From NCBI RefSeq assembly GCF_900172255.1, contig NZ_FWFU01000004.1, positions 124,001-188,000 on the forward strand: DNA of 64,000 nt. The letters are read 5' to 3'. Made by a program: the position numbers and the translations under genes. This document shows, in pieces, positions 3,839 through 57,159 of this stretch. Position 1 is the stretch's first letter, and each line of letters opens with the position of its first letter. This stretch comes from Roseovarius halotolerans (GTDB lineage: Bacteria; Pseudomonadota; Alphaproteobacteria; Rhodobacterales; Rhodobacteraceae). The notes below the pieces were generated by a model. It had not been told where the DNA came from and did no database searches. It was given only the letters and a program-made list of their open reading frames with translations.

Positions 3839-6172
<2,334 letters not shown>

Positions 6173-38566: not shown

Positions 38567-38598
38567 CAGCGGGCGCGCCACCGCCTAAAAAGGCCGTC

Positions 38599-41779: not shown

Positions 41780-41968
41780 ATGCTGTAACGCAGCATCGTG
41801 GCGCGGGGCGCAACTTGATTGCAAGTATTTGATATTGTTTCAATTTCTCAGGGATTGCTGTTTTTTCCGGCTCTTGACTTGAGCGCATGGCCGGTATGCG
41901 AAAACATGCCTGCGTCGCGTCATTGAAGACGCTGATTGCAATGTCTCAATGAATGGGAGGAGACTGAC

Positions 41969-42970
41969 ATGAAATTCCTGACAGCCACCGCAACCGCGAT
42001 GGCCCTGAGCCTCAGCGCTGGCGGCGCTTTCGCGGCCTGTGACGATGGCGAGATCGTCGTCAAGTTCAGCCACGTCACCAATACCGACAAGCACCCCAAG
42101 GGGATCGCTGCCTCGTTGCTGGAGCAGCGCGTGAACGACGAGATGGACGGCACGATGTGCATGGAAGTCTATCCGAATTCGACGCTCTACAATGACAACA
42201 AGGTCCTGGAAGCCATGTTGCAGGGCGATGTGCAGCTGGCCGCACCGTCGCTGTCGAAATTCGAGCAGTTCACCAAGCAGTTCCGCCTGTTCGACCTGCC
42301 CTTCATGTTCAAGGACATCGAAGCGGTGGACGCGTTCCAGGCGTCGGAAACCGGCCAGGCCATGCTGGATTCGATGCAGCGCCGCGGCCTTCAGGGGCTG
42401 GCCTACTGGCACAATGGCATGAAGCAGATGTCGGCCAACGTGCCGCTGATCGAGCCGAGCGACGCCGAGGGCCTGAAGTTCCGGGTCCAGTCCTCGGATG
42501 TTCTGGTCGCGCAGATGGAAGCGATCGGCGGCAGCCCGCAGAAAATGGCCTTTTCCGAGGTTTACGGCGCGTTGCAGCAGGGTGTCGTGGACGGGCAGGA
42601 GAACACCTGGTCGAATATCTACGGCAAGAAGTTCTTCGAGGTGCAGGATGGCGTCACCGAGACCAACCACGGTGTGATCGACTACCTGGTCGTGACCAAT
42701 ATCGACTGGCTCAACGGGCTTGACGAGGATGTGCGCGAGCAGTTCCTGACCATCGTCAACGAGGTCACGCAGACCCGCAACAGCGAATCCGCCAAGGTCA
42801 ACCAGGAGGCCAAGCAGGCGATCATCGACGCCGGCGGCGAGGTGCGCGAGCTGACGCCCGAGCAGCGTGAGAAATGGGTCGAGGCCATGAAGCCGGTCTG
42901 GGAACAGTTCAAGGACGACGTCGGCCAGGAGACCATCGACGCGGCCCAGGCGATCAACGCCAGCATGTAA
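41969..42970 (+). CDS. dctP: TRAP transporter substrate-binding protein DctP
   Basis: Periplasmic binding protein for a TRAP transporter, likely for C4-dicarboxylates. It is 333 residues long with signal peptide MKFLTATATAMALSLSAGGAFA. Mature features are VVKFSHVTNTDKHPKG, the substrate-contact Arg in EGLKFRVQSSDVLVAQME, and FSEVYGALQQGVVDGQENTWSNI. GGGAGGAG precedes the ATG at 41969. It is separated from dctQM by a strong hairpin that may favour high binding-protein levels. Confidence 0.94.
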   Translation: MKFLTATATAMALSLSAGGAFAACDDGEIVVKFSHVTNTDKHPKGIAASLLEQRVNDEMDGTMCMEVYPNSTLYNDNKVLEAMLQGDVQLAAPSLSKFEQFTKQFRLFDLPFMFKDIEAVDAFQASETGQAMLDSMQRRGLQGLAYWHNGMKQMSANVPLIEPSDAEGLKFRVQSSDVLVAQMEAIGGSPQKMAFSEVYGALQQGVVDGQENTWSNIYGKKFFEVQDGVTETNHGVIDYLVVTNIDWLNGLDEDVREQFLTIVNEVTQTRNSESAKVNQEAKQAIIDAGGEVRELTPEQREKWVEAMKPVWEQFKDDVGQETIDAAQAINASM

Positions 42971-42999
42971 CACCGCGTTGCGCCACTGGCGCAACCGGC

Positions 43000-43030
43000 G
43001 GGCGGGCCGTTTCGCATGGCCCGCCCTTTT
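43000..43030 (+). terminator. hairpin with T run between dctP and dctQ
   Basis: A 9-bp perfect stem GGGCGGGCC (43000-43008) / GGCCCGCCC (43018-43026) followed by TTTT (43027-43030). It begins 30 bp after the dctP stop and ends 28 bp before dctQ. It is probably a partial terminator or mRNA stabiliser that sets a high DctP:DctQM ratio. Confidence 0.8.
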
Positions 43031-43057
43031 CTTACCCGGTGAGAGGGAGGGGGAGAG

Positions 43058-43723
43058 ATGCAGACCCGTCACAGCACGACGGACAGGATAGAGGAGACGG
43101 TGATCGCCGCGCTTCTCGGTCTGATGACGATGGTGACATTCGCCAATGTCGTCGCGCGATACCTGTTCAATTCCAATATCCTGTGGGCGCTTGAACTGAC
43201 CGTGTTCATGTTCGGCTGGCTGGTTTTGCTGGGCGCCTCCTATGCGGTGAAGAAACGCGCCCATCTGGGGGTGGATGCGCTGCTCAACATGATGCCGCAG
43301 GGGCTGCGCCGGGGAATGGCGCTGTTTTCGGTGACCTGTTGCCTCGTGTTCGCGCTGATGCTGCTGAAGGGAGCCTGGGATTACTGGGCGCCTTATGCCG
43401 AGCTGCCGCCGACAACGGGCCGCTGGTTTCCCACCGGGCTCAATTTCGAGATGCGTGGCCAGGGCTGGTACGAGGTGCAGGACATCCCGATGATCGCGCC
43501 GCTGAAGTTCCTTGAGACGCTGATCAACGAGGGGCAGAGCTATGAGAAGATCCCCAAGGCGATCCCTTACCTCGTGCTGCCGATCTCGATGCTGCTGCTG
43601 ACGCTGCGTTTCGCGCAGGCCGCGGGCGCGATCTGGCGGGGTGAGAGCGATCGGCTGGTCGCCAGCCATGAGGTCGAGGACGAGCTTGAGAATATCCGCG
43701 CCCAGCAAGGGGAGCATGAGTAA
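43058..43723 (+). CDS. dctQ: TRAP transporter small permease DctQ
   Basis: A 221-residue inner-membrane subunit with four hydrophobic segments (about 15-35, 45-62, 85-105, 165-185). FANVVARYLFNSNILWALELTVFMFGWLVLLGASYAV is the TRAP small-subunit signature. The extended loop between helices 3 and 4 (about 110-160) is typical of the C4-dicarboxylate type. It shares one base with dctM (TAATG). Confidence 0.93.
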   Translation: MQTRHSTTDRIEETVIAALLGLMTMVTFANVVARYLFNSNILWALELTVFMFGWLVLLGASYAVKKRAHLGVDALLNMMPQGLRRGMALFSVTCCLVFALMLLKGAWDYWAPYAELPPTTGRWFPTGLNFEMRGQGWYEVQDIPMIAPLKFLETLINEGQSYEKIPKAIPYLVLPISMLLLTLRFAQAAGAIWRGESDRLVASHEVEDELENIRAQQGEHE

Positions 43724-45099
43724 TGGAAGTCCTTCTTCTTTTCGTCATGGTGATCGGCCTGATGCTGGTCGGCGTGCCGATCGCCATTTCCCTGGGGCTG
43801 AGTTCGACCCTGTTCCTGCTGTGGTTCTCGGACAGTTCGATGGCCTCCATCGCGCAGACCCTGTTCGAGGCCTTCGAGGGGCATTTCACCCTGCTGGCGA
43901 TCCCGTTCTTCATCCTCGCCTCGTCCTTCATGACGACGGGCGGCGTGGCGCAGCGGATCATCCGATTCTCGATTGCCTGCGTGGGGCACCTGCATGGCGG
44001 GCTGGCGATTGCAGGGGTGTTTGCCTGCATGCTGTTCGCGGCGCTGTCGGGGTCGAGCCCGGCGACGGTGGTCGCCATCGGCACGATCGTCATCGCGGGC
44101 ATGCGGCAGGTCGGCTATACGCGCGACTTCGCCGCCGGGGTGATCGCCAATGCGGGCACGCTTGGCATTCTCATCCCGCCCTCGATCGTGATGGTGGTCT
44201 ATGCCGCCGCGGTCGAGGTCTCGGTCGGGCGCATGTTCCTTGCGGGCGTGATCCCCGGCCTGATGGCGGGCGGGATGCTGATGACGGCGATCTACGTCAT
44301 GGCGCGGCTTCGCAACATGCCCAAGGGCGAATGGCTGGGCTGGGGCGAGATCCTGTCTTCGGGGCGCGATGCGGCCTGGGGGCTGTTCCTGATCGTCATC
44401 ATCCTGGGCGGTATCTATGGCGGCATCTTCACGCCGACCGAAGCCGCCGCCGTGGCCGCCGTCTATTCGTTCTTCATCGCCTCGTTCGTCTACAAGGACA
44501 TGGGGCCGCTCGCGACCAAGGGCGAAGGGCGCAACCTGAGCCTGTTGCACAAGCCGCAGGCGCTGATCACGGCCTTCTTCCATGCCGATACGCGGCACAC
44601 ATTGTTCGAGGCGGGCAAGCTGACGGTGACACTTCTATTCGTGATCGCCAACGCGCTGATCCTCAAGCATGTGCTGACCGACGAGCAGATCCCGCAGCAG
44701 ATCGCAGGTGCGATGCTGAATGCCGGGTTCGGGCCGGTGATGTTCCTGATCGTGGTCAACGTGATCCTGTTGATCGGCGGGCAGTTCATGGAGCCCTCGG
44801 GCCTTCTGGTGATCGTTGCGCCGCTGGTCTTTCCGATCGCGATGGAGCTGGGGATCGACCCCATTCACCTCGGCATCATCATGGTGGTCAACATGGAAAT
44901 CGGGATGATCACGCCGCCGGTTGGTCTCAACCTGTTCGTGACCTCGGGCGTGGCGGGGATGCCGATGATGAGCGTCGTGCGCGCCGCCCTGCCCTTCCTC
45001 GCGGTGCTCTTCGTGTTCCTGATCCTGATCACCTATATCCCGTGGATATCGACGGTGCTGCCCAATACCTTCATGGGGCCAGAGATCATTACGAAATAG
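43723..45099 (+). CDS. dctM: TRAP transporter large permease DctM
   Basis: The large membrane subunit of the Na+-driven TRAP transporter, 458 residues with about 11-12 helices. Signatures are ALSGSSPATVVAIGTIVIAGMRQVGY, NAGTLGILIPPSIVMVVYAA and NMEIGMITPPVGLNLFVTSGVAG. It carries the substrate delivered by DctP. A hairpin terminator follows at 45121-45151. Confidence 0.95.
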   Translation: MEVLLLFVMVIGLMLVGVPIAISLGLSSTLFLLWFSDSSMASIAQTLFEAFEGHFTLLAIPFFILASSFMTTGGVAQRIIRFSIACVGHLHGGLAIAGVFACMLFAALSGSSPATVVAIGTIVIAGMRQVGYTRDFAAGVIANAGTLGILIPPSIVMVVYAAAVEVSVGRMFLAGVIPGLMAGGMLMTAIYVMARLRNMPKGEWLGWGEILSSGRDAAWGLFLIVIILGGIYGGIFTPTEAAAVAAVYSFFIASFVYKDMGPLATKGEGRNLSLLHKPQALITAFFHADTRHTLFEAGKLTVTLLFVIANALILKHVLTDEQIPQQIAGAMLNAGFGPVMFLIVVNVILLIGGQFMEPSGLLVIVAPLVFPIAMELGIDPIHLGIIMVVNMEIGMITPPVGLNLFVTSGVAGMPMMSVVRAALPFLAVLFVFLILITYIPWISTVLPNTFMGPEIITK

Positions 45100-45163: not shown

Positions 45164-45949
45164 CTACTTCCCCTTCCAGACCGGGTCGCGTTTCTCTGCG
45201 AAGGCGCGGGCGCCCTCGGCCTGGTCCTCGGAGGCATAAAGCACATCCACGGTTTCAAACTGGCGCCGGGTGATCCGGTTCATGGCATCCTGGAAGGTCA
45301 TCGCCTCGGCCTCGCGCACGATCTCCTTGAGTGCGGCGTAGACAAGGGGCGGCCCCGATGCGAGATGCCCGGCCATTTCGCGCGCCTTCGCCATCAGGTC
45401 GCCCGCGGGGTGGACCTGATTGACGAGACCCCAGCGGGCGGCCTCTTCAGCGTCGATCCAGCGCCCGGTCAGCAGCATTTCCATCGCGATGTGATAGGGG
45501 ATGCGCTTGGGCAGTTTCACACTGGCGGCATCGGCCACCGTGCCCGAACGGATCTCGGGCAAGGCGAACTGCGCGTGATCCGCGGCCAGGATGATATCGG
45601 CCGAGAGCGCCCATTCCAGCCCGCCGCCACAGCAGATGCCGTTGACGGCGGCGATGATCGGCTTGTTCATCGCGCGCATTTCCTGAATGCCGCCAAATCC
45701 GCCCGGCCCGTAATCGCCATCCACCGCGTCACCATCGGCGGCGGCCTTGAGATCCCAGCCGGGGCAGAAGAATTTCTCGCCCGCGCCGGTGATGAGGGCG
45801 ACGCGCATGTCGGGATCGTCGCGAAAATCGCGGAACACTTCACCCAGGATGCGGCTGGTGGCGATGTCGATGGCGTTGGCCTTGGGCCGGTCCAGCGTCA
45901 CCTCGAGCACATGGCCCGAGCGGCTTGTCTTGACGGGGCTCTCTGTCAT
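45164..45949 (-). CDS. carnitinyl-CoA dehydratase (CaiD-like enoyl-CoA hydratase)
   Basis: A crotonase-fold enzyme of 261 residues. The oxyanion-hole segments GEKFFCPGWDLKAAADG and NGICCGGGLEWALSADIIL, and the catalytic Glu regions GGLEWAL and FALPEIRSGTVADAASVKLP, resemble CaiD, which interconverts crotonobetainyl-CoA and L-carnitinyl-CoA. The family call is firm; the substrate is inferred from the carnitine dehydrogenase in the same run. It overlaps the CoA ligase gene by 4 bp and is the last gene of the cluster. Confidence 0.85.
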   Translation of the reverse strand: MTESPVKTSRSGHVLEVTLDRPKANAIDIATSRILGEVFRDFRDDPDMRVALITGAGEKFFCPGWDLKAAADGDAVDGDYGPGGFGGIQEMRAMNKPIIAAVNGICCGGGLEWALSADIILAADHAQFALPEIRSGTVADAASVKLPKRIPYHIAMEMLLTGRWIDAEEAARWGLVNQVHPAGDLMAKAREMAGHLASGPPLVYAALKEIVREAEAMTFQDAMNRITRRQFETVDVLYASEDQAEGARAFAEKRDPVWKGK

Positions 45950-47997
45950 GGCGTCTCTCCGATGGTTGCGATGGTGATGAGCGCATCCACCGCCACGGCG
46001 CGGTCGGGCGTGCAGATGAGCGGGTTGATTTCCACCTCTTCGAGGTGTTCGGCATGGCGGGTCACGTAATCCTGCACCGCCAGCACCGCATCGGCAATGG
46101 CGGCGCGCGCGACCGGCGGCGCACCGCGATAGCCCGCCAGAAGGGGCGCGATGCGCAACCCGTCGAGCGCAGCATCGATATCGGCGCGGGTCACGGGCAA
46201 CAGGAGCTGTGCGCTGTCCGCGATGATCTCGGTGAGGGTGCCGCCCGCGCCGAGCGTCAGCACGAAGCCATGCGCCGGATCGCGGGTGACGCCGACCAGC
46301 AACTCCACCAGCCCGTCGGTGATCATCTCTTCGACCAGCCAGCTTTCGCAGGGCATGGCGCGCGCGGTGGCGATGGCGGCGGCCGCGTCATCGCGCGCCA
46401 GCACGACGCCGCCCGCTTCGGTCTTGTGGGCAAGGCCCTCGGCCTTGATCGCGAGCGGCGCGCCGATCCGCTGCGCGGCGTCTTGCAACGCCGCATCGTC
46501 ACCGGCACGCAGTGCGTTCGGCACCGCCACGCCATGCCGGGCGAGTGCCGCCTTGGCCTCGGCCTCGCTGAGGGTGACGGGCGCCCTGGGCGCGCCGGGC
46601 AGCAGAAGCGGTGCGGGATCGCGGCGGGGCCGGCCGAGAAAGGCGGCAACCTCGATCGCGCTCAGCGCATCATCAAGCCCGAGCAGCGGCACGAGCCCCG
46701 CCTCGATGCCGCGCAGGGCAACGGGTTCGGGCAGCGCCTCGGGCAAGGTGGCGATCAGCGCAAGCGGCTTGCCGCTGTCGCGCGCGGCGGTGGCGCTGGC
46801 CGTGATGATGCATTCCCAAGCTTCCATGGAGCAGCGATCCGTGCGCGGGAAATCGGCAACAACGCAGCCAAGCGCCAGGTCCCCCGACAGCATCGCCGTG
46901 AACGTGCACGCCATAGCCGGGACATTGTCCCAGATATAGGTGTGATAATCCAATGGGTTGGCGAGGGACACCATCGGCCCGAGCGCTTCCCTGAGCGCGG
47001 CTTGCTGGCCCGTCGAAAGTGGCGGACATTCGATATCGCGCCCCGTCGCGCTGTCGGCCACGAGGCTGGCCTCGCCCCCCGAGCAGGACATCGAGGCGAT
47101 CCGGTTCGATGGCAGGGCGCCTGCGAAATGCACGAGCTTCAGGCTTTCCAGCAAGGCGGTCAGGCTGGAGACCTGCGCGAACCCCAGGCGCCGCAAGAGC
47201 GCCCGCCCGCCCGCATCGCTGCCCGCCAGCGAAGCGGTATGCGAAACCGCCGCCGCGCGCGCATGGGCCGAACGCCCGGCCTTCAACGCGATCACCGGCT
47301 TGTTGCGCGCATGTGCCTCGGCGGCAAGCGCCTCGAAGGCGCGCAGGTCGCCCACCCCTTCGATATGCAGGCCAAGCGCGGTCACGCGATCATCGGCCAG
47401 AAGCGCGCGCCCCATATCGGCAAGGCCGGTCTGCGCCTGGTTCCCGGCGGTCAGCACATAGGCCAGCGGCAGGCCGCGCGCCTGCATGGTGAGGTTGAGC
47501 GCGATGTTGGAGCTTTGCGTGAGGATCGCGACGCCCGAATCGCAGCGCTGCCCGCCATGCTGGTCGGGCCAGAGCAGCGCCCCGTCGAGGTAATTGACGA
47601 AGCCATAGCAGTTCGGCCCGATCACCGGCATCGCCCCCGCCGCCTGCAGCAACTGCGCCTGAAGGTCGGCGCCATCGCCGGTTTCGGCCTGCGCCTCGCT
47701 GAAGCCGCTGGCGAAACAGACCGCCCCGCCCGCCCCCATCAGGGCAAGCGCGCGAGTCATCTCGATGGTGGCGTGGCGGTTGACGCCGATGAATGCCGCA
47801 TCCGGCGCGCCGGGCAGATCGGCGAGCTCGGCATAAGCCGCGACGCCGCCCAGCTCGCTGCGGCGCGGATGCACCGGCCAGATATCGCCGGCAAAGCCCA
47901 TCTTGCGGCATTGCGCGACCACATTGGCGCACCACGCCCCGCCGCCGATCACGGCGATCGAGCGCGGGCGCAAGAGGCGGGAAAGATCGCGTGTCAT
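45946..47997 (-). CDS. ADP-forming acyl-CoA synthetase (acetate-CoA ligase family), fused subunits
   Basis: A 683-residue NDP-forming acyl-CoA ligase with a CoA-binding Rossmann domain (1 to about 130, VIGGGAWCANVVAQCRKMGF), two succinyl-CoA-ligase-like domains (INxTGPNCYGF-type segment PVIGPNCYGFVNY; VSHTASLAGSD with the conserved His) and a C-terminal ATP-grasp domain (about 460-683, PLAIKAEGLAHKTEAGGVVL). It probably activates the pathway acid, such as gamma-butyrobetaine or crotonobetaine, to its CoA ester (inference from neighbours). It takes the place of the AMP-forming CaiC of enteric bacteria. Confidence 0.85.
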   Translation of the reverse strand: MTRDLSRLLRPRSIAVIGGGAWCANVVAQCRKMGFAGDIWPVHPRRSELGGVAAYAELADLPGAPDAAFIGVNRHATIEMTRALALMGAGGAVCFASGFSEAQAETGDGADLQAQLLQAAGAMPVIGPNCYGFVNYLDGALLWPDQHGGQRCDSGVAILTQSSNIALNLTMQARGLPLAYVLTAGNQAQTGLADMGRALLADDRVTALGLHIEGVGDLRAFEALAAEAHARNKPVIALKAGRSAHARAAAVSHTASLAGSDAGGRALLRRLGFAQVSSLTALLESLKLVHFAGALPSNRIASMSCSGGEASLVADSATGRDIECPPLSTGQQAALREALGPMVSLANPLDYHTYIWDNVPAMACTFTAMLSGDLALGCVVADFPRTDRCSMEAWECIITASATAARDSGKPLALIATLPEALPEPVALRGIEAGLVPLLGLDDALSAIEVAAFLGRPRRDPAPLLLPGAPRAPVTLSEAEAKAALARHGVAVPNALRAGDDAALQDAAQRIGAPLAIKAEGLAHKTEAGGVVLARDDAAAAIATARAMPCESWLVEEMITDGLVELLVGVTRDPAHGFVLTLGAGGTLTEIIADSAQLLLPVTRADIDAALDGLRIAPLLAGYRGAPPVARAAIADAVLAVQDYVTRHAEHLEEVEINPLICTPDRAVAVDALITIATIGETP

Positions 47998-48016
47998 GGA
48001 TGACTCCCTCGTGAAG

Positions 48017-48081
48017 AAAAGGGGCGCTGCCCCTTTTGGCCTTCGGCCAATTCACCCCGAGGTATTTCCGGCCAGATGAAG
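48017..48081 (+). repeat. hairpin-plus-box dispersed repeat, copy B
   Basis: A 9-bp hairpin AAAAGGGGC-GCT-GCCCCTTTT (48017-48037), a second hairpin TTGGCC-TTC-GGCCAA (48036-48050), then CCCCGAGGTATTTCCGGCCA continuing to GATGAAG at 48081. It faces copy C 126 bp away. Confidence 0.78.
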
Positions 48082-48206
48082 TAACCCGCTGTTAACCCTG
48101 CCCCGGCATACTGGCCGCGCGGCACAGGCTGAGGAGCCGATGGCCGCGCAAGGTGAAGCCCCTCGTTCCTTGTGGACGGGGGGTGCTCCATGAAGCGGGC
48201 CGTGGT

Positions 48207-48254
48207 CTTCATCTGGCGGGAAATACCTCGGGGGTTCGGGGGCAGCGCCCCCGA
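48207..48254 (-). repeat. hairpin-plus-box dispersed repeat, copy C (inverted)
   Basis: On the minus strand: an 8-bp hairpin TCGGGGGC-GCT-GCCCCCGA (48254-48236) followed by the box CCCCGAGGTATTTCCCGCCA continuing to GATGAAG (48233-48207). With copy B it makes an inverted pair enclosing about 125 bp without a gene, between the ligase and acyl-CoA dehydrogenase genes. Confidence 0.78.
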
Positions 48255-48289
48255 TGCGATGGCCCCGATATCCCGCGCACCGTCCGCCT

Positions 48290-49450
48290 TCATGCGCCGA
48301 GCGGTCGCAGCAATTCGCGGCTGATGATGTGGCGCTGGATTTCGCTGGTGCCGTCCCAGATCCGCTCGACCCGCGCATCGCGCCAGAACCGCTCGATGGG
48401 CAGATCGTCCATCAGACCCATGCCGCCATGCAGCTGGAGGGTGGCGTCGGTCACGCGGGCCAGCATTTCGCTGGCGTACAGCTTGGCGCTGGCGATCTCG
48501 CGGTTGGCGGGCAGGCCCTGGTCAAGCCGCCAGGCGGCAGCCAGGGTGAGAAAATCTGCGGCGTCGATCTCGGTGATCATGTCGGCGACCTGGAAGCCCA
48601 CGCCCTGGAACTTGCCGATGGGCTGGCCGAACTGGCGCCGTTCGGCGGCCTGCGAGAGCGCGTATTCAAAGCAGCGCCGCGCGCGCCCGACGCTCATGGT
48701 GGCGACGGTGATCCGGGTGGCGTAGAGCCACTCGTTCATCACCGCGAAGCCACCATCGACCTCGCCCAGCACCTGCGCGTCGGGCAGGCGGCAATCGTCG
48801 AATTCCAGCACCATGTTCTTGTAGCCGCGATGGCTGACCGAGTTGTATCCGTCGCGGATGGTGAAGCCGGGCGTGCCACGATCCACCAGAAATGTCGTGA
48901 TCCGCTTCTTGGGGCCGCGGTCGGTCATGTCCTCGCCGGTGGCCACGAAGACGATGACGAAATCGGCGTGATCCGCGCCCGAGATGAAATGCTTGGTGCC
49001 GTTGAGCACCCAATCCCCGCCGTCGCGCCGGGCGCTGCATTTCATGCTGCGCACATCCGATCCGGCGTCCGGTTCGGTCATCGCCAGCGCGTCCATCCGC
49101 TCGCCGCGCACCGCCGGCAGGAGGTAGCGCTCGCGCTGTTCGCCGGTGCAGGCCATGAGGATGTTCTGGGGGCGTCCGAAGAAATGCGTGAGCGCCATCG
49201 AGCCGCGCCCGAGTTCGCGCTCGACAAGGGCGAAGTCCAGATGACCCAGCCCCGCGCCGCCGACCTCTTCGGGGAAGTTGCAGGCATAGAAACCAAGGTC
49301 CAGCGTCTTGCGCCGGATCTCCTGCGCGAGCTCGGCGGGCACCGCGCCGCTGCGCTCGACCTCGGCCTCGTGGGGATAGATCTCGTTCTCGACGAAGCTG
49401 CGCACGGTCGAGACGATCATCTCCTGTTCGTCACTCAATCCGAAATGCAT
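48290..49450 (-). CDS. acyl-CoA dehydrogenase (probable gamma-butyrobetainyl/crotonobetainyl-CoA step)
   Basis: An FAD enzyme of 386 residues with the full acyl-CoA dehydrogenase fold: LSDEQEMIVSTVRSFVENEI, ALAMTEPDAGSDVRSM, YNSVSHRGYKNMVLEFDDCRLP, RRQFGQPIGKFQGV and LHGGMGLMDDLPIERFWRDARV. The usual catalytic Glu-Gly-Thr reads Asp-Gly-Thr (RIWDGTSEIQR). It probably oxidises gamma-butyrobetainyl-CoA to crotonobetainyl-CoA, by analogy with CaiA and its neighbours. The ATG at 49450 starts 4 bp after the lcdH stop, so it follows lcdH in the operon. Confidence 0.87.
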   Translation of the reverse strand: MHFGLSDEQEMIVSTVRSFVENEIYPHEAEVERSGAVPAELAQEIRRKTLDLGFYACNFPEEVGGAGLGHLDFALVERELGRGSMALTHFFGRPQNILMACTGEQRERYLLPAVRGERMDALAMTEPDAGSDVRSMKCSARRDGGDWVLNGTKHFISGADHADFVIVFVATGEDMTDRGPKKRITTFLVDRGTPGFTIRDGYNSVSHRGYKNMVLEFDDCRLPDAQVLGEVDGGFAVMNEWLYATRITVATMSVGRARRCFEYALSQAAERRQFGQPIGKFQGVGFQVADMITEIDAADFLTLAAAWRLDQGLPANREIASAKLYASEMLARVTDATLQLHGGMGLMDDLPIERFWRDARVERIWDGTSEIQRHIISRELLRPLGA

Positions 49451-49454
49451 GGGT

Positions 49455-50864
49455 TCAGTCCTTATCGGCATGAAGCGCCGCCAGTTCCGCGACGCGGCGG
49501 GCGACCTGGGGCGCGGGGTCACAGGAGCGGCGGGTTTCGAGGCTGACATGGATCATCAGCTGATCGGAACTGGCCAGCACCGTGCCATCGCCCGCGCGGA
49601 TCATCTGGTGGGCGCAGCGCAGTTTCTTGCCCGCGCCTTCGGTGACGCGGCTATGGACCTCGACCCGCTCGCCGGCATGGGTTTCAGCGAGGAAACGGAT
49701 CGTGGATTCAACGGTGAAATAGCTGAGCCCGGAGGCGATGTAATCGGCATCGGCCCCCACATGTGCCATGACCACATCCGCCGCGTCCGAGAATATCTGC
49801 CCGTAGCGGCCTTCGTTCATGTGGCCGTTGGCATCGGTCCAGTCCACCGCGATCACCCGCGACTGCGACACCAGCGGATCACCTTCGGCAAGCGGCTGGC
49901 GCAGGCTGTCCTGATGCGCGTTGATCAGCCGCCCGGCGGCATTGCCCTGCTGCCGGAGCGCGCGCATCATGGCGATGAGGTTGCCATCGCGCTTGCGCTC
50001 GAGTTCGCGGATCGACAGGTGCCCCGACTGCGCGTCGGACTGGCTGGCGATCTTTTCCACCAGTTCGTCGCTCATTTCGGGCACATCCATTAGCTTGGTC
50101 CAGGGCCAGGCCAGGGCCGGGCCGAACTGGGCGATGAAATGGCGCATCCCCGCCTCGCCCCCGGCGATGCGGAAGGTCTCGAACAGCCCCATCTGCCCCC
50201 ATCTGAGGCCAAAGGCATAACGGATCGCGTTGTCGATTTCCTCGGTGGTGGCGATGTCGTCATTCACGAGCCACAGCCCCTCGCGCCAGACGGCTTCCAT
50301 CAGGCGGTCCGCGATATGGGCGTCGATTTCCTTGCGCACATGCAGGGGATAGAGCCCGACCGAGGTGAGCAGCGCCTTGCAGGTTTCCACAGCACCCGGA
50401 TCGGTGGCGGGCGACGGGACGACCTCGATGAGTGGCAGAAGGTAGACCGGGTTGAACGGGTGCGTCACCATGATGCGGGACGGATCGGCGGCGCCCTCTT
50501 GCAGCTCGGAGGGTTTGAAACCCGAGGTCGAGGAGCCGATCAGCGCGCCCGGATCGGCGGCCTGGATCTCGGCGAAGACGCGGTGCTTGAGGTCCAGCCG
50601 TTCGGTCACGCTTTCCTGCACCCAATCCGCGCCGCTGACCGCCTCGGCGATCGAGGCGCAAAAGCTCAGGCTGCCCTCGTCCGGCAGGGCGCAGTCATAG
50701 AGCATGGGCAGGGCGCGGCGGGCATTGTCGAGCACTTCGCCGACCTTGCGCTCGGCCTGCGCGTCGGGGTCGAAGACACGCACGTCCCAGCCATTGAGCA
50801 AAAAGCGCGCGGCCCAGCCGCCGCCGATGACGCCGCCCCCGATGATCGCTGCGGTTCTTGTCAT
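49455..50864 (-). CDS. lcdH: L-carnitine 3-dehydrogenase fused to a hotdog thioesterase
   Basis: A 469-residue two-domain protein. Residues 1 to about 320 are a 3-hydroxyacyl-CoA-dehydrogenase-type NAD enzyme (IIGGGVIGGGWAARFLLNG; SSTSGFKPSELQ; THPFNPVYLLPLIEVV) that oxidises L-carnitine to 3-dehydrocarnitine. Residues about 330-460 are a 4HBT hotdog domain (VDWTDANGHMNEGRYGQIFSDAAD), as in fused enzymes where the C-terminus hydrolyses betainyl-CoA. Both steps flank the BKACE reaction encoded nearby. It is the strongest substrate clue for the cluster. Confidence 0.92.
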   Translation of the reverse strand: MTRTAAIIGGGVIGGGWAARFLLNGWDVRVFDPDAQAERKVGEVLDNARRALPMLYDCALPDEGSLSFCASIAEAVSGADWVQESVTERLDLKHRVFAEIQAADPGALIGSSTSGFKPSELQEGAADPSRIMVTHPFNPVYLLPLIEVVPSPATDPGAVETCKALLTSVGLYPLHVRKEIDAHIADRLMEAVWREGLWLVNDDIATTEEIDNAIRYAFGLRWGQMGLFETFRIAGGEAGMRHFIAQFGPALAWPWTKLMDVPEMSDELVEKIASQSDAQSGHLSIRELERKRDGNLIAMMRALRQQGNAAGRLINAHQDSLRQPLAEGDPLVSQSRVIAVDWTDANGHMNEGRYGQIFSDAADVVMAHVGADADYIASGLSYFTVESTIRFLAETHAGERVEVHSRVTEGAGKKLRCAHQMIRAGDGTVLASSDQLMIHVSLETRRSCDPAPQVARRVAELAALHADKD

Positions 50865-51397
50865 GTGTTGTCTCCTTCCGGGCGCATCCGAAGTGCGCCT
50901 TCGTCATATCCGTTGAATTCCAGTATCTCGCGGGCGGCGGTGATGCGGTCGCCGCCGCCCGAGGCCGCGCGGTCGAGCACCCAGCCGAAGCTGCCATCGG
51001 GCGTGCCGATGGCGGCGGTGCGATAGCCCTCATCGACCCAGACCACCCAGAGTTCCAGCGCCCCCGAGGGGCCGGAAAGCCGCCAGCGGTTCGGTCCCAG
51101 AACGGTGGCGGGTCGTGTGATGCGCCGGGTTTCACAGGCGCCGCCCGCATCGCAGACCCTGCGCGTGAAGGTGAATGTGTCGGTCTCGCCCGGATGGAAG
51201 CCAACCGCGACCAGCCCCGCCATGTCGGGCGTTGGCGGCGTGGCCGCGCGCAGCACCCAGTCGCCCGAGAGCCGCGCATGATCACTGCGCGTCGTGACCG
51301 AGAGCGGCTGTCCCGTGTCGCGATACCCCGGCCCGGTGGGCGCGGTGGCACAGGCTGCAAGGAGCAGCAGCGAAAAGAGGCTGACACGCAGTTTCAT
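50861..51397 (-). CDS. lipocalin-like lipoprotein
   Basis: A 178-residue lipoprotein: signal MKLRVSLFSLLLLAAC with lipobox LAAC and acyl-Cys at 16. The mature part has lipocalin traits: LSGDWVLRAATPP (the G-x-W block) and the final strand and helix YRTAAIGTPDGSFGWVLDRAASG. It could bind a lipid or hydrophobic ligand in the envelope. It overlaps lcdH (4 bp) and the SDR gene (4 bp), so it is made with the catabolic enzymes; its role there is unknown. Confidence 0.78.
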   Translation of the reverse strand: MKLRVSLFSLLLLAACATAPTGPGYRDTGQPLSVTTRSDHARLSGDWVLRAATPPTPDMAGLVAVGFHPGETDTFTFTRRVCDAGGACETRRITRPATVLGPNRWRLSGPSGALELWVVWVDEGYRTAAIGTPDGSFGWVLDRAASGGGDRITAAREILEFNGYDEGALRMRPEGDNT

Positions 51398-52158
51398 GGC
51401 ACCATGCTTTCGGTATGGCCGTCCACCGCCAGCACCTGACCGCTGACGCGGGCGGCGGCGGGAGAGGCGAGGAACAGCGCCATGTCGGCAAGGTCGTCGG
51501 CGCTGACCCATGTGCGCAGGCTGGAGCCCTTGACGTAAATCTGGCGCACGTCGTCGGGGGAAAGCCCGCTGGCGGCGGCTTCCATTTCGACGACGCGGTC
51601 CATGCGCGCGCCCTCGACTGCGCCGGGGGCGATGGCGTTGACGCGCACGCCTGCGGGGCCAAGCTCCATCGCCAGCGTCTTCATGAGGCCAATGAGCCCC
51701 CATTTGGCCGCGACATAGGGGCTGCGATGGGGCACGCCATAGAGGCCGGAGGTGGAACTGGTCAGGAGGATCAGCCCGGCGCCCTGCCCCCGCATCACCC
51801 GCGCCGCCCAGCGGCAGGTGAGAAAGGCGCCGTTGAGGTTGACATCGAGGCAGGCGCGCCACGCGTCGAAATCGAGATCCTCGATCCGCCCCGCCGGGCC
51901 GCCGGTGCCCGCGTTGGCGCAGACCACGTCGGCGCCGCCCCAATCCTGTTCGACCTTTCCAAGAAAGGCGTCCATCTGTGCGGGATCGGTGACATCGGCC
52001 TGGACGGCGATGGCATCCGGCATTTCGGCCCGGGCGGCGGCGACGGCCGATGCATCCGCATCACAGAGCGCAACGCGATCGCCGCGCGCATGAAAGCGGC
52101 GCGCAAAGGTCAGGCCGATCCCCGAGGCACCGCCGGTGATGACGACACGCTGTCCCAT
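51394..52158 (-). CDS. SDR family oxidoreductase
   Basis: A 254-residue classical short-chain dehydrogenase: TGGASGIG cofactor loop, CANAGTGGP, catalytic Ser-Tyr-Lys in LTSSTSGLYGVPHRSPYVAAKWG, and C-terminal VSGQVLAVDGHTESMVP. It lies between BKACE and the lipocalin gene in the carnitine cluster. The substrate could be a carnitine-related alcohol or D-carnitine, but the sequence does not say. Confidence 0.88.
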   Translation of the reverse strand: MGQRVVITGGASGIGLTFARRFHARGDRVALCDADASAVAAARAEMPDAIAVQADVTDPAQMDAFLGKVEQDWGGADVVCANAGTGGPAGRIEDLDFDAWRACLDVNLNGAFLTCRWAARVMRGQGAGLILLTSSTSGLYGVPHRSPYVAAKWGLIGLMKTLAMELGPAGVRVNAIAPGAVEGARMDRVVEMEAAASGLSPDDVRQIYVKGSSLRTWVSADDLADMALFLASPAAARVSGQVLAVDGHTESMVP

Positions 52159-52164
52159 GATCGC

Positions 52165-53079
52165 TCAGCCCTTGGGCGCTTGTTTGCGCAGGTTCAGCTT
52201 CTGGCGGACTTCGTCGGGGCCGATCACCCGCGCGCCAAGGTTCTCGACGATCCCGGCGGCGCGTTCGACAAGCTGCCAGTTCTCGGCCAGCACGCCCTTG
52301 TCGAGCATCAGGTTATCTTCGAGCCCGACGCGCACATTGCCGCCCGCCAGCACGCTGGCGGCCACATAGGGCATCTGGTTGCGCCCCAGGGCGAAGGCCG
52401 AAAAGGTCCACTCGGAAGGGATGTTGTTGACCATCGCCATGAAGGTGTTGAGGTCATCGGGCGCGCCCCAGGGCACGCCCATGCAGAGCTGAACCAGGGC
52501 GTCGGGTTCAAGGATGCCGTCCTTGACCAGTTGCTTGGCATACCACAGGTGGCCGGTGTCGAAGGCCTCGATCTCGGGTTTCACCCCCAGTTCGGTCATC
52601 ATGCGGCCCATTGCCTGCAACATCCCCGGCGTATTGGTCATGACGTAATCGGCCTCGGCGAAGTTCATCGTGCCGCAATCGAGGGTGCAGATTTCCGGCA
52701 GGCAGTCGGCGACATGGGCGACGCGTTCGCTGGCGCCGGCCATGTCGGTGCCCGCCTCGTCCACCGGCAGCGGTGCGTCGATGCCGCCGAAGGTGATATC
52801 GCCGCCCATCCCGGCGGTGAGGTTCAGCACAACATCGGTGTCCGAGTCGCGGATCCGGTCGGTGACTTCGCGAAACAACCCGCGATCACGCGAGGGCGCG
52901 CCGGTTTCGGGGTCGCGGACATGGCAATGGACCACGGCGGCCCCGGCCTTGGCGGCGGCGATGGCGCTGTCTGCAATCTGCCGGGGCGAGCGGGGCACAT
53001 GCGGGCTGCGGTCCTGGGTCGCGCCCGAGCCGGTCACGGCACAGGTGATGAAAACCTCGCGGTTCATGGCAAGCGGCAT
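52165..53079 (-). CDS. BKACE family enzyme, probable 3-dehydrocarnitine cleavage enzyme
   Basis: A 304-residue beta-keto acid cleavage enzyme (TIM barrel, Zn). Signatures are FITCAVTGSGAT, AAVVHCHVRDPETGAPSRD with the His ligands, NLTAGMGG, and EAFDTGHLWYAKQLVKDG. With the carnitine dehydrogenase next door, the likely reaction is 3-dehydrocarnitine plus acetyl-CoA giving acetoacetate plus betainyl-CoA. AGGAGG lies 5 nt before the ATG at 53079. It is the first gene of the catabolic operon, divergent from the regulator. Confidence 0.9.
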   Translation of the reverse strand: MPLAMNREVFITCAVTGSGATQDRSPHVPRSPRQIADSAIAAAKAGAAVVHCHVRDPETGAPSRDRGLFREVTDRIRDSDTDVVLNLTAGMGGDITFGGIDAPLPVDEAGTDMAGASERVAHVADCLPEICTLDCGTMNFAEADYVMTNTPGMLQAMGRMMTELGVKPEIEAFDTGHLWYAKQLVKDGILEPDALVQLCMGVPWGAPDDLNTFMAMVNNIPSEWTFSAFALGRNQMPYVAASVLAGGNVRVGLEDNLMLDKGVLAENWQLVERAAGIVENLGARVIGPDEVRQKLNLRKQAPKG

Positions 53080-53178
53080 GGGGTCCTCCTGATCTGCTGC
53101 GGGTCATGCGATGGCATGAGTTGCGCGAAGGGTAACCCGCTGGTGGCCGGATCGCATATGCAGTATCAGACAATTATC

Positions 53179-54132
53179 ATGCCTGAATGGACAAAAACCA
53201 CGGACGCGCCGGTGCGCATCACCTTTCTGCTCTTTGATGAGTTCTCGAACCTGTGCCTGGCGAACTGCCTGGAGCCGTTGCGCGCAGCCAACACGATCAC
53301 GCGGGCGCGCGCCTTTGACTGGCAGATCGTGACACCATCGGGCGCGCCGGTGCTGTCCTCGAGCGGGATGCAGGTGATGCCCCACGCCGCCCTGCCCGAC
53401 ATGCAGGGCAACGCCGATTACCTGTTCGTGCTGGCCAGCTATTACCACGAGGCGCATGATTCGGGCGCGACGCGGCGGGCGTTGCGGGTGGCGGCGCGCA
53501 AGGCGGGCGCGGTCGTGGCGCTGGATGCGGGGCCGTGGCTGCTGGCGGCGGCGGGGCTGCTGGCGGGGCGGCGGGCGACGGTGCATTGGGACCTGCTGGA
53601 CGCCTTTACCGAGCGGTTCCTCGATGTCGAAGCCGAGCGCGCAAGGGTCTTGCGCGACGGGCCTTGGTGGACCTGTGCGGGGGCGATGTCGGCGCTTGAT
53701 CTGACGCTGGGGCTGATTGCGGATCACCTGGGGCTGGCGGCGCGGCTGGATGTGGAATCACTGTTCATTCATGGCGATCCGCCGGTGGCGATGCCGCGTG
53801 AACGCCAGGCGGTGAGCGATCCGCTGGTGCACCGGGCGCTGAGCCTGATGCGCCAGAACACCGAACGGCCCCTGCCGCAGTCGGTGCTGGCGCGCAGGCT
53901 GTCATGCCAGGCGCGCACGCTGGACCGGCGGTTTCGCGCGACCCTGGGCGCGCCGCCCGGTGCGGTCTATCGCCATCTGCGCCTTGCGGCGGCGCGGCGG
54001 ATGCTGGAAACCACCAGCCTCGGCATCGCGGAAATCGCGCTGCGCAGCGGTTATGACAGCCCCGCCGCGCTGACGCGGGCGGTGCGCCGCCTTTACGGGG
54101 CGACGCCGTCGCAACTGCGCGCAAGCGCTTGA
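53179..54132 (+). CDS. GlxA family transcriptional regulator (DJ-1/PfpI + AraC HTH)
   Basis: About 317 residues: an N-terminal DJ-1/PfpI-like domain (ITFLLFDEFSNLCLANCLEPLRAAN; YLFVLASYYHEAHDS) and a C-terminal AraC-type HTH (QSVLARRLSCQARTLDRRFRATLG; IAEIALRSGYDSPAALTRAVRRLYGATPSQLR). The family includes GbdR and CdhR, which activate betaine and carnitine genes, and its divergent position fits control of the neighbouring cluster. An ATG at 53158 is an alternative start. The very long upstream open frame is antisense to other genes and discarded. Confidence 0.88.
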   Translation: MPEWTKTTDAPVRITFLLFDEFSNLCLANCLEPLRAANTITRARAFDWQIVTPSGAPVLSSSGMQVMPHAALPDMQGNADYLFVLASYYHEAHDSGATRRALRVAARKAGAVVALDAGPWLLAAAGLLAGRRATVHWDLLDAFTERFLDVEAERARVLRDGPWWTCAGAMSALDLTLGLIADHLGLAARLDVESLFIHGDPPVAMPRERQAVSDPLVHRALSLMRQNTERPLPQSVLARRLSCQARTLDRRFRATLGAPPGAVYRHLRLAAARRMLETTSLGIAEIALRSGYDSPAALTRAVRRLYGATPSQLRASA

Positions 54133-54163: not shown

Positions 54164-54535
54164 ATGACAGAACCCACGAACGCCCCCCGATTTCGCCTGC
54201 GCCTTGTCTTTGCCAGCAACGAGATGCTGGGACCGGGCAAGGCCGAGCTGTTGGAGCGGATCGCCGAGACGGGGTCGATCGCGGCGGCGGGGCGTGGGAT
54301 GGGCATGAGCTACAAGCGGGCCTGGCAGTTGGTCGAGACGATGAACGCGATGTTCCGCGCTCCGCTGGTCGAAAGCACGCGCGGCGGCGCGCGCGGCGGC
54401 GGGGCCGTGGTGACCGAGACCGGGCAAGCGGTTCTGGCAGAGTTCCGGGGTCTCGAGGAGGCCTCGAGAACCGCTGGCGCGGACCATATCGCGCGGCTGA
54501 CGGGGATGCTGCGCGATATTCCCGATGGAAAATAA
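54164..54535 (+). CDS. modE: ModE-type N-terminal winged-helix transcriptional regulator
   Basis: A 123-residue protein consisting only of the ModE/LysR-type winged helix: GKAELLERIAETGSIAAAGRGMGMSYKRAWQLVETMN and FRAPLVESTRGGARGGGAVVTETG. The C-terminal TOBE/MOP molybdate-binding domains of full-length ModE are absent, so how it senses molybdate is unclear. It directly precedes modABC, and two probable operators lie at its 3' end and downstream (54513-54583). Confidence 0.85.
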   Translation: MTEPTNAPRFRLRLVFASNEMLGPGKAELLERIAETGSIAAAGRGMGMSYKRAWQLVETMNAMFRAPLVESTRGGARGGGAVVTETGQAVLAEFRGLEEASRTAGADHIARLTGMLRDIPDGK

Positions 54536-54538
54536 CGC
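54513..54538 (+). promoter_or_regulatory. putative Mo-box, site 1
   Basis: GCGATAT-N12-ATAACGC, one mismatch from a perfect palindrome; it overlaps the last codons of the ModE-type gene. With site 2 it forms a direct repeat matching at 22 of 26 positions (GATATTCCCG...CGCTT). Confidence 0.6.
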
Positions 54539-54559
54539 TTGCCTTGCGGGTGGCACTTT

Positions 54560-54583
54560 CGATATTCCCGGTGAAACATATCG
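54560..54583 (+). promoter_or_regulatory. putative Mo-box, site 2, upstream of modA
   Basis: Perfect CGATAT-N12-ATATCG palindrome, ending 18 bp before the modA ATG, where bound regulator would block transcription or translation. ModE boxes in other bacteria have ATAT-rich inverted arms, so this fits a ModE repressor site (inference). Confidence 0.65.
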
Positions 54584-54601
54584 CTTTGCTGAGGGAACCA
54601 G

Positions 54602-55378
54602 ATGAGCCTTACATCCACGCGCCGCGCGATTGCCGCCATACTGGCCGCCGCGCTGCTGCCCGCAACCATTGCGCGGGCCGACAGCGTCACGGTCTTTGCC
54701 GCCGCCAGCATGACCAACGCCATGCAGGACGTGGAGGACCGGTTCGAGGCCGCAAGCGGTCATGAGCTTGTGGTGTCACTGGCAGGATCGTCGGCGCTGG
54801 CGCGCCAGATCCAGTTGGGCGCCCCGGCGGATGTGTTCATCTCGGCCAATCCGGGATGGATGGATACCCTGGAATCCGAAGGGCTGATCGCGGAGGGCAC
54901 GCGGTTCGATCTCTTGAACAACGCCATCGTGCTGATCGCGCACGGGTCCGATGCGCCGCAGGTCGATATCGGCCCCGGCATGGACATGGCGGGGTTGCTG
55001 GATGGCGGACGGCTGGCGATGGCGATGGTCGATGCGGTGCCTGCCGGGATCTATGGCAAGGCGTCGCTGACATCGCTGGGGCTGTGGGATGGCATCGCCC
55101 GCGATGTGGCGCAGGCCGACAATGTGCGCGCCGCGCTGGCGCTGGTGGCGACCGGCGAAGCGCCCTACGGCATCGTCTATGCGACCGATGCGTCGGCCAG
55201 CGATAACGTGACGGTCGTGGGCACCTTCCCCGCCGAGAGCCACCCCCCGATTGTCTACCCTGCGGCACGTATTGCGGGACGCGAGAGCGAGGCCGTGGCG
55301 ACGTTTCTTGAATTCCTGCGCGGTCCCGAAGCGCGCACGGCCTTCGAGCGACAGGGGTTCATCGTGGTGCAGGAGTAA
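54602..55378 (+). CDS. modA: molybdate ABC transporter substrate-binding protein
   Basis: Periplasmic molybdate/tungstate-binding protein of 258 residues. The signal peptide ends ATIARA, followed by the ligand motifs VFAAASMTNAM, LAGSSALARQIQLGAPADVFISAN and YGIVYATDASAS. A 9-bp gap leads to modB. The putative Mo-boxes upstream suggest repression when molybdate is plentiful. Confidence 0.95.
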   Translation: MSLTSTRRAIAAILAAALLPATIARADSVTVFAAASMTNAMQDVEDRFEAASGHELVVSLAGSSALARQIQLGAPADVFISANPGWMDTLESEGLIAEGTRFDLLNNAIVLIAHGSDAPQVDIGPGMDMAGLLDGGRLAMAMVDAVPAGIYGKASLTSLGLWDGIARDVAQADNVRAALALVATGEAPYGIVYATDASASDNVTVVGTFPAESHPPIVYPAARIAGRESEAVATFLEFLRGPEARTAFERQGFIVVQE

Positions 55379-55387
55379 CGCGACCGC

Positions 55388-56080
55388 ATGGGATGGCTTG
55401 AACCGCAGGAATGGGAGGCCGTGGCGCTGTCGCTGAGGGTCTCGTTCTGGGCAACGCTGGTGGCGTTGCCCTTTGGCGTGTTCATCGCCCATGCGCTGGC
55501 ACGCTGGCATTTTCCGGGCAAGCAGCTGTTGAACGGGCTGGTGCACCTGCCGCTGATCCTGCCGCCGGTAGTGACGGGCTACCTGTTGCTGTTGACCTTC
55601 GGCACCAAGGGGCCGGTGGGCGCGCTGTTGCAGGATTTCGGGATCGTGCTGGCGTTTCGCTGGACCGGCGCGGCGCTGGCGGCGGCGGTTATGGGCTTTC
55701 CACTGATGGTGCGCGCGATCCGCCTGTCGATCGAGGCGGTCGATCCGAAGCTGGAACAGGCGGCATCGGTCCTGGGGGCATCGCGGGTATGGGTCTTCGT
55801 GACGGTCACGCTGCCACTGATCCTGCCGGGGATCATCGCGGGCAGTATCCTCGGCTTCGCCAAGGCAATGGGCGAGTTCGGCGCGACGATCACCTTCGTT
55901 TCAAACATCCCCGGCGAAACCCGCACGGTGCCCACGGCGATCTATGCCTTCTTGCAGGTGCCGGGGGGTGAATCCTCGGCGATGCGGCTGGTTGTGGTCT
56001 CGGTCGTGGTGGCGATGGGGGCGCTGATCATGTCGGAATGGCTGGCGCGGCGAGCGGCCAAAAGGGTTTCGGGAACATGA
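55388..56080 (+). CDS. modB: molybdate ABC transporter permease
   Basis: A 230-residue inner-membrane permease with about five helices. The EAA loop that contacts ModC reads EQAASVLGASRVWVFVTVTLPLILPG. AKAMGEFGATITFVSNIPGETRT and PTAIYAFLQVPGGE are typical of ModB. Its stop overlaps the modC start (ATGA). Confidence 0.95.
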   Translation: MGWLEPQEWEAVALSLRVSFWATLVALPFGVFIAHALARWHFPGKQLLNGLVHLPLILPPVVTGYLLLLTFGTKGPVGALLQDFGIVLAFRWTGAALAAAVMGFPLMVRAIRLSIEAVDPKLEQAASVLGASRVWVFVTVTLPLILPGIIAGSILGFAKAMGEFGATITFVSNIPGETRTVPTAIYAFLQVPGGESSAMRLVVVSVVVAMGALIMSEWLARRAAKRVSGT

Positions 56081-57159
56081 CGCTCGCGGTGCGCATCAGA
56101 CATTCATTCGGGGATTTCATGCTGGATGTGGATTTCGAGGCGCCGCCCGGCTTGACGGTGCTGTTCGGGCGTTCGGGATCGGGCAAGACGACGGTCATCA
56201 ATGCGGTGGCAGGTCTGCTGAGACCCGATGAGGGGCGTATCGCGGTGGATGGGCAAACCCTGCTGGACAGTGCGGGCCGCGTGGACCTGCCGCCGCATCG
56301 CCGGGGTCTGGGATATGTGTTCCAGGAGGCGCGGCTGTTTCCGCATATGAGCGTGCGCCAGAACCTCAAGTTCAGCCGCTGGTTCCGCAAGGGTACGCGC
56401 GCCGATTTCGGGCAGGTGGTCGAGATGCTGGGGATCGGCGACCTGTTGGATCGCCGCCCCGGTGCGCTGTCGGGGGGCGAGCGCCAGCGCGTCGCCATCG
56501 GGCGCGCATTGCTGGGCGATCCGGGAATCCTGCTGGCCGATGAGCCGCTGGCGGCGCTGGATGATGCGCGCAAGGCCGAGATCCTGCCCTATTTCGAGCG
56601 CCTGCGCGACGAGGCGGCGGTACCGATCCTGTATGTCAGCCATTCCGCCGCCGAGGTGGCGCGGCTGGCGACCACGGTGGTTGCACTGGAAAATGGCCGT
56701 GTTGCGGGGCAAGGCCCCGCCGCCGACGTTCTGGGCGATCCGATGCTGACGCCGCTGGGTGCGCGGGCCATGGGCGCGGTCCTGTCGGCGCGGGTGGTGG
56801 CGCATCACGATGACGGACTGAGCGAGCTCGATGCCGGTGGCGTGCCGCTTTTCGTGCCGCGGGTGGTGCAGTCGGCAGGGCAAACCATACGCCTGCGTAT
56901 TGCCGCGCAGGAGGTGATGTTGTCGCGCGCAAGGCCCGAGGGCGTGTCGGCACTCAATATCCTTCCCGGCACCATCGAGCAGGTCCGCCCCGGCGAGGGG
57001 CCGGGGGCGATCGTGTCGCTGGCGACCCCCGCCGGGCGCATCCTCGCGCGGATCACGCAACGGTCCGCCAAGACGCTTGGGCTGGCCGAGGGAATGCACT
57101 GCCACGCCATCATCAAGAGCGTCGCCATCGCGCCGCAGGATATCGGCGGCCAGGACTAG
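56077..57159 (+). CDS. modC: molybdate ABC transporter ATP-binding protein
   Basis: A 360-residue ABC ATPase: Walker A FGRSGSGKTTVINA, Q-loop YVFQEARLFPHMSV, signature LSGGERQRVAIGRALLGDPGILLADEPLAALDDA, H-loop YVSHSAAEV. A C-terminal TOBE/MOP domain (about 290-355, VSALNILPGTIEQVRPGEGPG) may bind molybdate for feedback. It ends 15 bp from the convergent ubiV with no clear terminator between them. Confidence 0.96.
   Translation: MTLAVRIRHSFGDFMLDVDFEAPPGLTVLFGRSGSGKTTVINAVAGLLRPDEGRIAVDGQTLLDSAGRVDLPPHRRGLGYVFQEARLFPHMSVRQNLKFSRWFRKGTRADFGQVVEMLGIGDLLDRRPGALSGGERQRVAIGRALLGDPGILLADEPLAALDDARKAEILPYFERLRDEAAVPILYVSHSAAEVARLATTVVALENGRVAGQGPAADVLGDPMLTPLGARAMGAVLSARVVAHHDDGLSELDAGGVPLFVPRVVQSAGQTIRLRIAAQEVMLSRARPEGVSALNILPGTIEQVRPGEGPGAIVSLATPAGRILARITQRSAKTLGLAEGMHCHAIIKSVAIAPQDIGGQD

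Follow-up and report, generated by a model that had tools for sequence, protein, structure and literature searches.

Does the gene cluster at positions 45164-54132 of a 64,000-nucleotide stretch of Roseovarius halotolerans DNA (the whole stretch is called the window below) encode an aerobic route from gamma-butyrobetaine (GBB) to glycine betaine? An earlier note, made from the letters of the window, had drawn such a chain and had called its first half inference. The chain as a whole is supported: it fits a pathway of Sinorhizobium meliloti, with orthologues in the same order, and the cluster is very probably the Roseovarius form of the operon for aerobic GBB catabolism described in that species. 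The first half is now backed by orthology, by in vitro work with BcoAB, the ligase from S. meliloti, and by co-occurrence with carnitine dehydrogenase. The pathway is already known and not new; for the cluster in Roseovarius, we found no description in searches of open-licence papers.

The cluster comprises eight genes, seven on the minus strand and one divergent regulator on the plus strand. Its features are as follows, with the steps numbered as in the pathway given further below.

45164-45949, minus strand: enoyl-CoA hydratase homologue (ECH), CaiD-like, putative crotonobetainyl-CoA hydratase of step 3 (identity to CaiD and to the S. meliloti protein, NCBIfam)
45946-47997, minus strand: ADP-forming acyl-CoA ligase, putative gamma-butyrobetaine--CoA ligase of step 1, perhaps reversed in step 4 (domains, S. 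meliloti identity, conserved residues)
47998-48289, no strand: apparently non-coding space carrying an inverted repeat of 27 bp (repeat search)
48290-49450, minus strand: acyl-CoA dehydrogenase (ACAD), putative gamma-butyrobetainyl-CoA dehydrogenase of step 2 (S. meliloti orthology)
49455-50864, minus strand: carnitine 3-dehydrogenase (CDH) fused to a hotdog thioesterase (the fusion is called CDH-TE), predicted for steps 5 and 7 (NF005716, Pfam)
50861-51397, minus strand: small lipocalin-like lipoprotein (Lipocalin_2, LAAC lipobox)
51394-52158, minus strand: short-chain dehydrogenase/reductase (SDR) tied to carnitine dehydrogenase, proposed D-carnitine dehydrogenase (gene context, alignments)
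52165-53079, minus strand: BKACE, predicted 3-dehydrocarnitine cleavage enzyme of step 6 (PF05853, S. meliloti identity)
53179-54132, plus strand: divergent CdhR/GbdR-type regulator with a GATase-1-like and an AraC helix-turn-helix domain, start at 53179 or 53158 (DJ-1_PfpI and HTH_18)

Pfam and NCBIfam models recovered the families that the earlier note had read (ECH, ligase, ACAD, a fusion of 3HCDH and 4HBT, Lipocalin_2, SDR, BKACE and regulator), each at its place and on its strand. The count of nine genes given there has to be lowered to eight, because the 292-bp space between ligase and ACAD (47998-48289) holds no visible gene. The start of the ACAD was placed at 49450 to fit the 386-aa S. 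meliloti orthologue. Outside the 292-bp gap, neighbouring genes on the minus strand either share 4 bp or are separated by 4-6 bp, so they likely form one transcription unit.

In S. meliloti 4H41 (locus L108), the regulator is followed by BKACE, CDH-TE, ACAD, ligase and ECH, matching the window. Identities to the window proteins are 73% for BKACE, 47% for CDH-TE, 77-78% for ACAD, 54% for the ligase (679 positions), 77% for ECH and 33% for the regulator, which was located in L108 solely by a tblastn match. A best-in-genome test covered ACAD, ECH and BKACE, and for these three S. meliloti queries the window proteins were the top genome matches (78 versus 39%, 77 versus 36% and 73 versus 34% for the next best). 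Five enzyme orthologues, their order with a divergent CdhR-like regulator, the fusion of the carnitine dehydrogenase to a hotdog domain and an Asp variant of the ACAD are all common to the window and to the S. meliloti GBB/L-carnitine cluster (bco genes, SM2011_c01638 and BKACE). In the window, by contrast, the operon also contains an SDR and the lipocalin lipoprotein, and a dispersed repeat lies between the genes for ACAD and ligase. In L108, unlike in the window, ABC transporter genes flank the cluster on both sides, and an SDR of only 28% identity lies past the regulator (4097-4858).

In S. meliloti, five enzymes reportedly convert GBB to glycine betaine in seven steps in vitro (the work is that of Bazire et al., 2019, in J Bacteriol), and the pathway is said there to be conserved in soil, plant-associated and marine bacteria. 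Transferred to the window, GBB would be converted to gbb-CoA by the ADP-forming ligase (step 1), and the ACAD would desaturate gbb-CoA to crotonobetainyl-CoA (step 2), which the CaiD-like hydratase would hydrate to L-carnitinyl-CoA (step 3). Release of free L-carnitine from L-carnitinyl-CoA (step 4) would fall to the thioesterase domain or to the ligase acting in reverse, and the dehydrogenase domain of CDH-TE would then oxidize the carnitine to 3-dehydrocarnitine (step 5). BKACE would turn 3-dehydrocarnitine and acetyl-CoA into betainyl-CoA and acetoacetate (step 6), and hydrolysis of betainyl-CoA by the fused hotdog domain would yield glycine betaine (step 7). Induction of the operon would be expected from the CdhR-like regulator. 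Gene content, order, orthology and co-occurrence are established for the window; the reactions come from S. meliloti, and the Roseovarius enzymes presumably share the substrates of their counterparts.

Passages in three other papers bear on single components. SM2011_c01638 is credited with the conversion of carnitine to 3-dehydrocarnitine and also of betainyl-CoA to glycine betaine in a passage that cites Bazire (PMC12482172). Elsewhere, a passage describes the enzymatic preparation of gbb-CoA with the gbb:CoA ligase BcoAB of S. meliloti, ATP and CoA, using a plasmid from A. Perret (PMC8364193). In Ruegeria pomeroyi, CdhABC is mentioned as raised on N-osmolytes, with carnitine among the carbon sources (passage in PMC12478193).

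We surveyed named genomes for loci with the ligase. The scan confirmed 118 relatives, of which the best 80 loci were used; the ligase is present in them by construction, some are cut by contig ends, and genes were called at cut-offs set in the script. An ACAD was found in all 80 loci, ECH in 78, CDH in 66, BKACE in 62, a divergent regulator in 59, the SDR in 17 and the lipocalin in 4. In the 66 loci whose sequence upstream of the ACAD is longer than 4.5 kb, the counts were 64 for ECH, 56 for CDH, 54 for BKACE and 55 for the regulator. Where present, the core genes follow the order of the window in the survey rows printed. Since this order is shared by Rhodobacteraceae, by Rhizobiales and by some metagenome-assembled genomes of gammaproteobacteria, the cluster is no chance grouping. 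The closest named relative found was Roseovarius sp. EGI FJ00037 (locus L063), with eight proteins 89-99% identical.

Carnitine dehydrogenase also co-occurs with the ligase on the level of whole genomes. Among 289 genomes of the class, a CDH match of at least 300 bits was present in 23 of the 25 genomes with a ligase match of at least 400 bits, versus 18 of the 264 others; the thresholds were picked after the tables had been seen, the genomes are not independent, and one ligase fragment (G173, 340 bits) fell below the line. The two ligase-bearing genomes without a CDH match were G193 (64% complete) and G060. An ACAD-ligase-ECH module without CDH was seen in 14 of the 80 loci, three of them cut at the ACAD. 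In all ten upper-only genomes searched (those with more than 4.5 kb upstream), a CDH match lies elsewhere, nine times as a full CDH-thioesterase above the model cut-off and once as a match of 330 bits, below the cut-off, with an adjoining hotdog match. The co-occurrence with carnitine dehydrogenase and the recurring order tie the upper module to carnitine. Ten open reading frames (ORFs) around the upper-only modules of three of the 14 loci (L041, L048 and L064) were uninformative about the substrate (HemY, TsaD, glycerol-3-phosphate dehydrogenase, DXP synthase, EVE-domain proteins, a fatty acid hydroxylase, a class II aldolase, an AMP-binding ligase, a FadB-like protein and one without match).

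Many Roseobacter relatives thus carry the S. meliloti-type GBB gene set, in some cases as an upper module complete in itself, and marine GBB could therefore be turned into carnitine and glycine betaine through CoA chemistry, with no need for an oxygenase. Stand-alone ACAD-ligase-ECH modules with a divergent CdhR-like regulator of their own were seen in L040, L041, L042, L048, L053 and L055; in the five of these genomes that were searched (those of L040, L042, L048, L053 and L055), carnitine dehydrogenase lies elsewhere.

The ligase belongs to the ADP-forming superfamily (CoA_binding_2, Succ_CoA_lig and ATP-grasp_5 in Pfam), and its paralogues in the same genome are 33% identical. Its relatives of solved structure are 3-hydroxypropionate--CoA ligase and, as the second match and over the full length, DddX (PDB 7cm9), whose substrate is the sulfonium analogue dimethylsulfoniopropionate (DMSP). 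DddX is described in a passage of PMC8163506 as an ATP-dependent DMSP lyase with a catalytic Glu432 and with Trp391 and Phe435 stacking on the onium group. Like DddX, the ligase has the phosphohistidine of the superfamily (H253, kept in 79 of 79 aligned rows) and an aromatic residue, W394 (Trp in 76 of 79 rows), at the onium position Phe435; Y351 and W356 are present in all 79 rows. Unlike DddX, it has His352 (His in 73 of the 79 rows), adjoining Y351, in place of the second onium residue Trp391, and Glu432 is not kept but aligns with Met391, a variable column across the 79 rows. With this residue missing, DMSP lyase identity was ruled out for the ligase. From this one alignment we infer an acid CoA ligase whose aromatic-rich site could hold an onium group without a lyase step. 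Two motifs in the alignment rows, NPLDYHTxxW and DxPRxDRC...W, provide a candidate signature for a GBB ligase subfamily.

For the hydratase, identity to E. coli K-12 CaiD is 55% over 262 positions, and both positions of the Glu pair that has a role in crotonases are kept. Its top NCBIfam model is crotonobetainyl-CoA hydratase, with 318.6 bits (strict cut-off 500) against 232 bits for the next model. The ACAD is more distant from its E. coli counterpart, and at only 31% identity to CaiA, CaiA identity was ruled out. Its motif at the position that we take to be the catalytic Glu of other ACADs reads IWDGTSEIQ, with Asp, in both the window and S. meliloti. The solved ACAD relatives shown have Glu (IYEGT versus IWDGT in the window), and E. 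coli CaiA has Gly in the aligned column. Across the 80 loci this position is Asp in 48 and Glu in 32, the Asp form occurring in 34 of 39 loci with a fused CDH versus 4 of 27 with an unfused CDH, and in 10 of the 14 CDH-free loci.

In the lower half, CDH-TE matched NF005716 (carnitine 3-dehydrogenase) with 694 bits (cut-off 592; the S. meliloti homologue scores 947 bits) and carries the Pfam domains 3HCDH_N, 3HCDH and 4HBT_2, and BKACE matched PF05853 with 331 bits. The regulator reached 145 bits with the GbdR model, below its cut-off of 480. In the space between BKACE and regulator (53080-53185), a TTGTC block (minus-strand reading) lies close to where the regulator gene begins, and a CCAG block is conserved in most rows of an alignment of 11 from relatives; together they are a possible regulator site.

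Some observations weigh against a GBB operon. The top NCBIfam model for the ACAD is acryloyl-CoA reductase and not CaiA, the identities of ligase and CDH-TE to the S. meliloti proteins are a mere 54 and 47%, and BcoAB is presumed to be the ligase at L108 because a scan of eight adjacent genes there showed no second CoA ligase. One could then suppose that only the lower half serves carnitine, with ligase, ACAD and ECH acting on a different short acid or betaine; the ACAD model and the whole-length alignment of the ligase with DddX might point to DMSP or acrylate, for instance. Yet the S. meliloti ACAD, which comes from a GBB-using cluster, has the same top model, the catalytic glutamate of DddX falls in a variable column of the ligase alignment, the ECH is CaiD-like, and comparative genomics ties the upper module to carnitine dehydrogenase; we regard this explanation as highly improbable. 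Even less credit is due to an upper half running in reverse, in the manner of the E. coli Cai system, to dispose of carnitine as GBB. The hydratase is indeed related to CaiD, but the upper genes stand in one row with those for the oxidative conversion of carnitine to glycine betaine. Moreover, a BLASTP comparison of CaiA, CaiB, CaiC and CaiD, limited to ten proteins of the window (E-value threshold 1e-3), returned only the CaiD-ECH and CaiA-ACAD pairs, and no match for CaiB or CaiC.

A different question arises within the GBB operon itself, at the release of carnitine from carnitinyl-CoA. ADP-forming ligases are reversible, and the reversed reaction (carnitinyl-CoA + ADP + Pi -> carnitine + CoA + ATP) would free carnitine in the same pathway; GBB would then be converted to carnitine without net ATP cost. 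We consider this quite possible, with the odds slightly against it. Among the 14 CDH-free loci, three of which are truncated at the ACAD, no ORF resembling the CDH-TE hotdog domain was detected, and just one of the 27 loci with an unfused CDH has such an ORF, in a scan blind to ORFs shorter than 90 aa or running off an end. Ten of the 27 genomes of the unfused type were searched, and nine had only weak hotdog relatives (25-31% identity) and one had none. On the other hand, the fused hotdog domain is encoded elsewhere in 9 of the 10 upper-only genomes and could therefore act in trans. The missing hotdog ORFs are thus compatible with ligase reversal but no proof of it, since the search was for relatives of this domain and not for unrelated thioesterases, and since those nine genomes do encode the fused enzyme. 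The scheme of five enzymes and seven steps reported by Bazire et al. would fit either release route.

The SDR appears to belong to the lower half. It was found in 17 of the 66 loci with CDH versus none of the 14 without (Fisher p 0.03, relatedness ignored), in 4 of the 17 on the opposite side of CDH; one cluster that includes the SDR is that of Roseovarius mucosus DSM 17069 (L110). Of 198 genomes of the family, 73 gave a match at an E-value of 1e-55 in a search by SDR similarity, which was independent of the ligase. Among the 29 best SDR relatives besides the one in the window, 23 had CDH and 16 had BKACE within about 1.5 kb on either side, and five had neither. In one genome (G154), the SDR directly follows CDH and the best ligase match is about 0.86 Mb away. 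These neighbourhoods and the arrangement in G154 argue that the SDR travels with the lower half.

When the SDR was aligned with 3v2h, the Gln, His and Lys of D-3-hydroxybutyrate dehydrogenases, which we take to be their carboxylate-binding set, read Gly, Ser and Arg, the Arg being invariant in 17 of 17 SDR rows. With the set absent, a D-3-hydroxybutyrate dehydrogenase was disfavoured. In its geometry, D-carnitine corresponds to the (R)-3-hydroxybutyrate form used by SDRs of this kind, and L-carnitine to the (S) form used by the 3HCDH family. Stereochemistry and gene context suggest that the SDR is perhaps a D-carnitine dehydrogenase. It is conceivable, though rather unlikely as a combination, that such an enzyme feeds the 3-dehydrocarnitine pool while a reversible ligase activates GBB and reclaims ATP from carnitinyl-CoA. 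If so, the Roseobacter version of the pathway would be extended, with both carnitine enantiomers used. The lipoprotein next to the SDR gene matches Lipocalin_2 with 26.5 bits (cut-off 24) and has a LAAC lipobox, read from its sequence; it is rare, with a relative in 4 of the 80 loci.

Three further known systems bear comparison. The cluster shares a CaiD-like hydratase (55%) with E. coli caiTABCDE, but has an ADP-forming ligase in the place of CaiC, an ACAD with 31% identity to CaiA and probably the oxidative direction. Lower half and regulator type resemble the caiX-cdhCAB-hocS operon of Pseudomonas aeruginosa with its divergent CdhR, which, as far as the genes listed for it in the source go, is without the ACAD-ligase-ECH module of the window. 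As in an island of SAR11 described in a passage of PMC12421898, carnitine dehydrogenase and BKACE stand alongside a GBB enzyme; this enzyme is a gamma-butyrobetaine dioxygenase (BBOX) in SAR11, where the window has CoA chemistry. TIGR02409 (BBOX) had no match in the window genome, but control genomes likewise gave none.

The unfused-CDH loci contain a further gene, an Abhydrolase_3 protein (12952-13893 in L071, and relatives), in 20 of 27 cases, 19 of them just downstream of ECH. It was seen in 4 of the 39 fused-CDH loci, there far off and on the other strand. As a guess, it is perhaps an acylcarnitine esterase.

A TRAP transporter (41936-45099; DctQ, DctM and a solute-binding protein read from the ORFs) is convergent with the carnitine cluster, and a histidine-kinase/response-regulator pair (38563-41612), DctB/DctD by sequence reading, precedes it. 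Among the 80 loci, DctQ matched only in the near-identical locus of Roseovarius sp. EGI FJ00037, and two other loci had DctM matches of 33-35%. The transporter is unlikely to be the GBB importer, given its convergent orientation, the preceding two-component pair and the restriction of DctQ to that one locus. On the other side, next to the regulator, the ORFs at 54164-57159 resemble a set for molybdate uptake, consisting of an ABC transporter together with a ModE-like regulator. Three matches to MttB-family methyltransferases in the window genome (L116-L118) exceed the cut-off, two of them with more than 700 bits; they are possible routes for glycine betaine demethylation.

The dispersed repeat (core CCGAGGTATTTCCNGCCAGATGAAG) is present in three copies in the window, two in the gap between ligase and ACAD (48055-48081 and 48207-48233) and one at 41668-41692. 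Its 25-bp core was found at 46 places in the 3.73-Mb genome with at most 2 mismatches, versus none for the reversed control, and the element appears to be REP-like (similar to repetitive extragenic palindromes).

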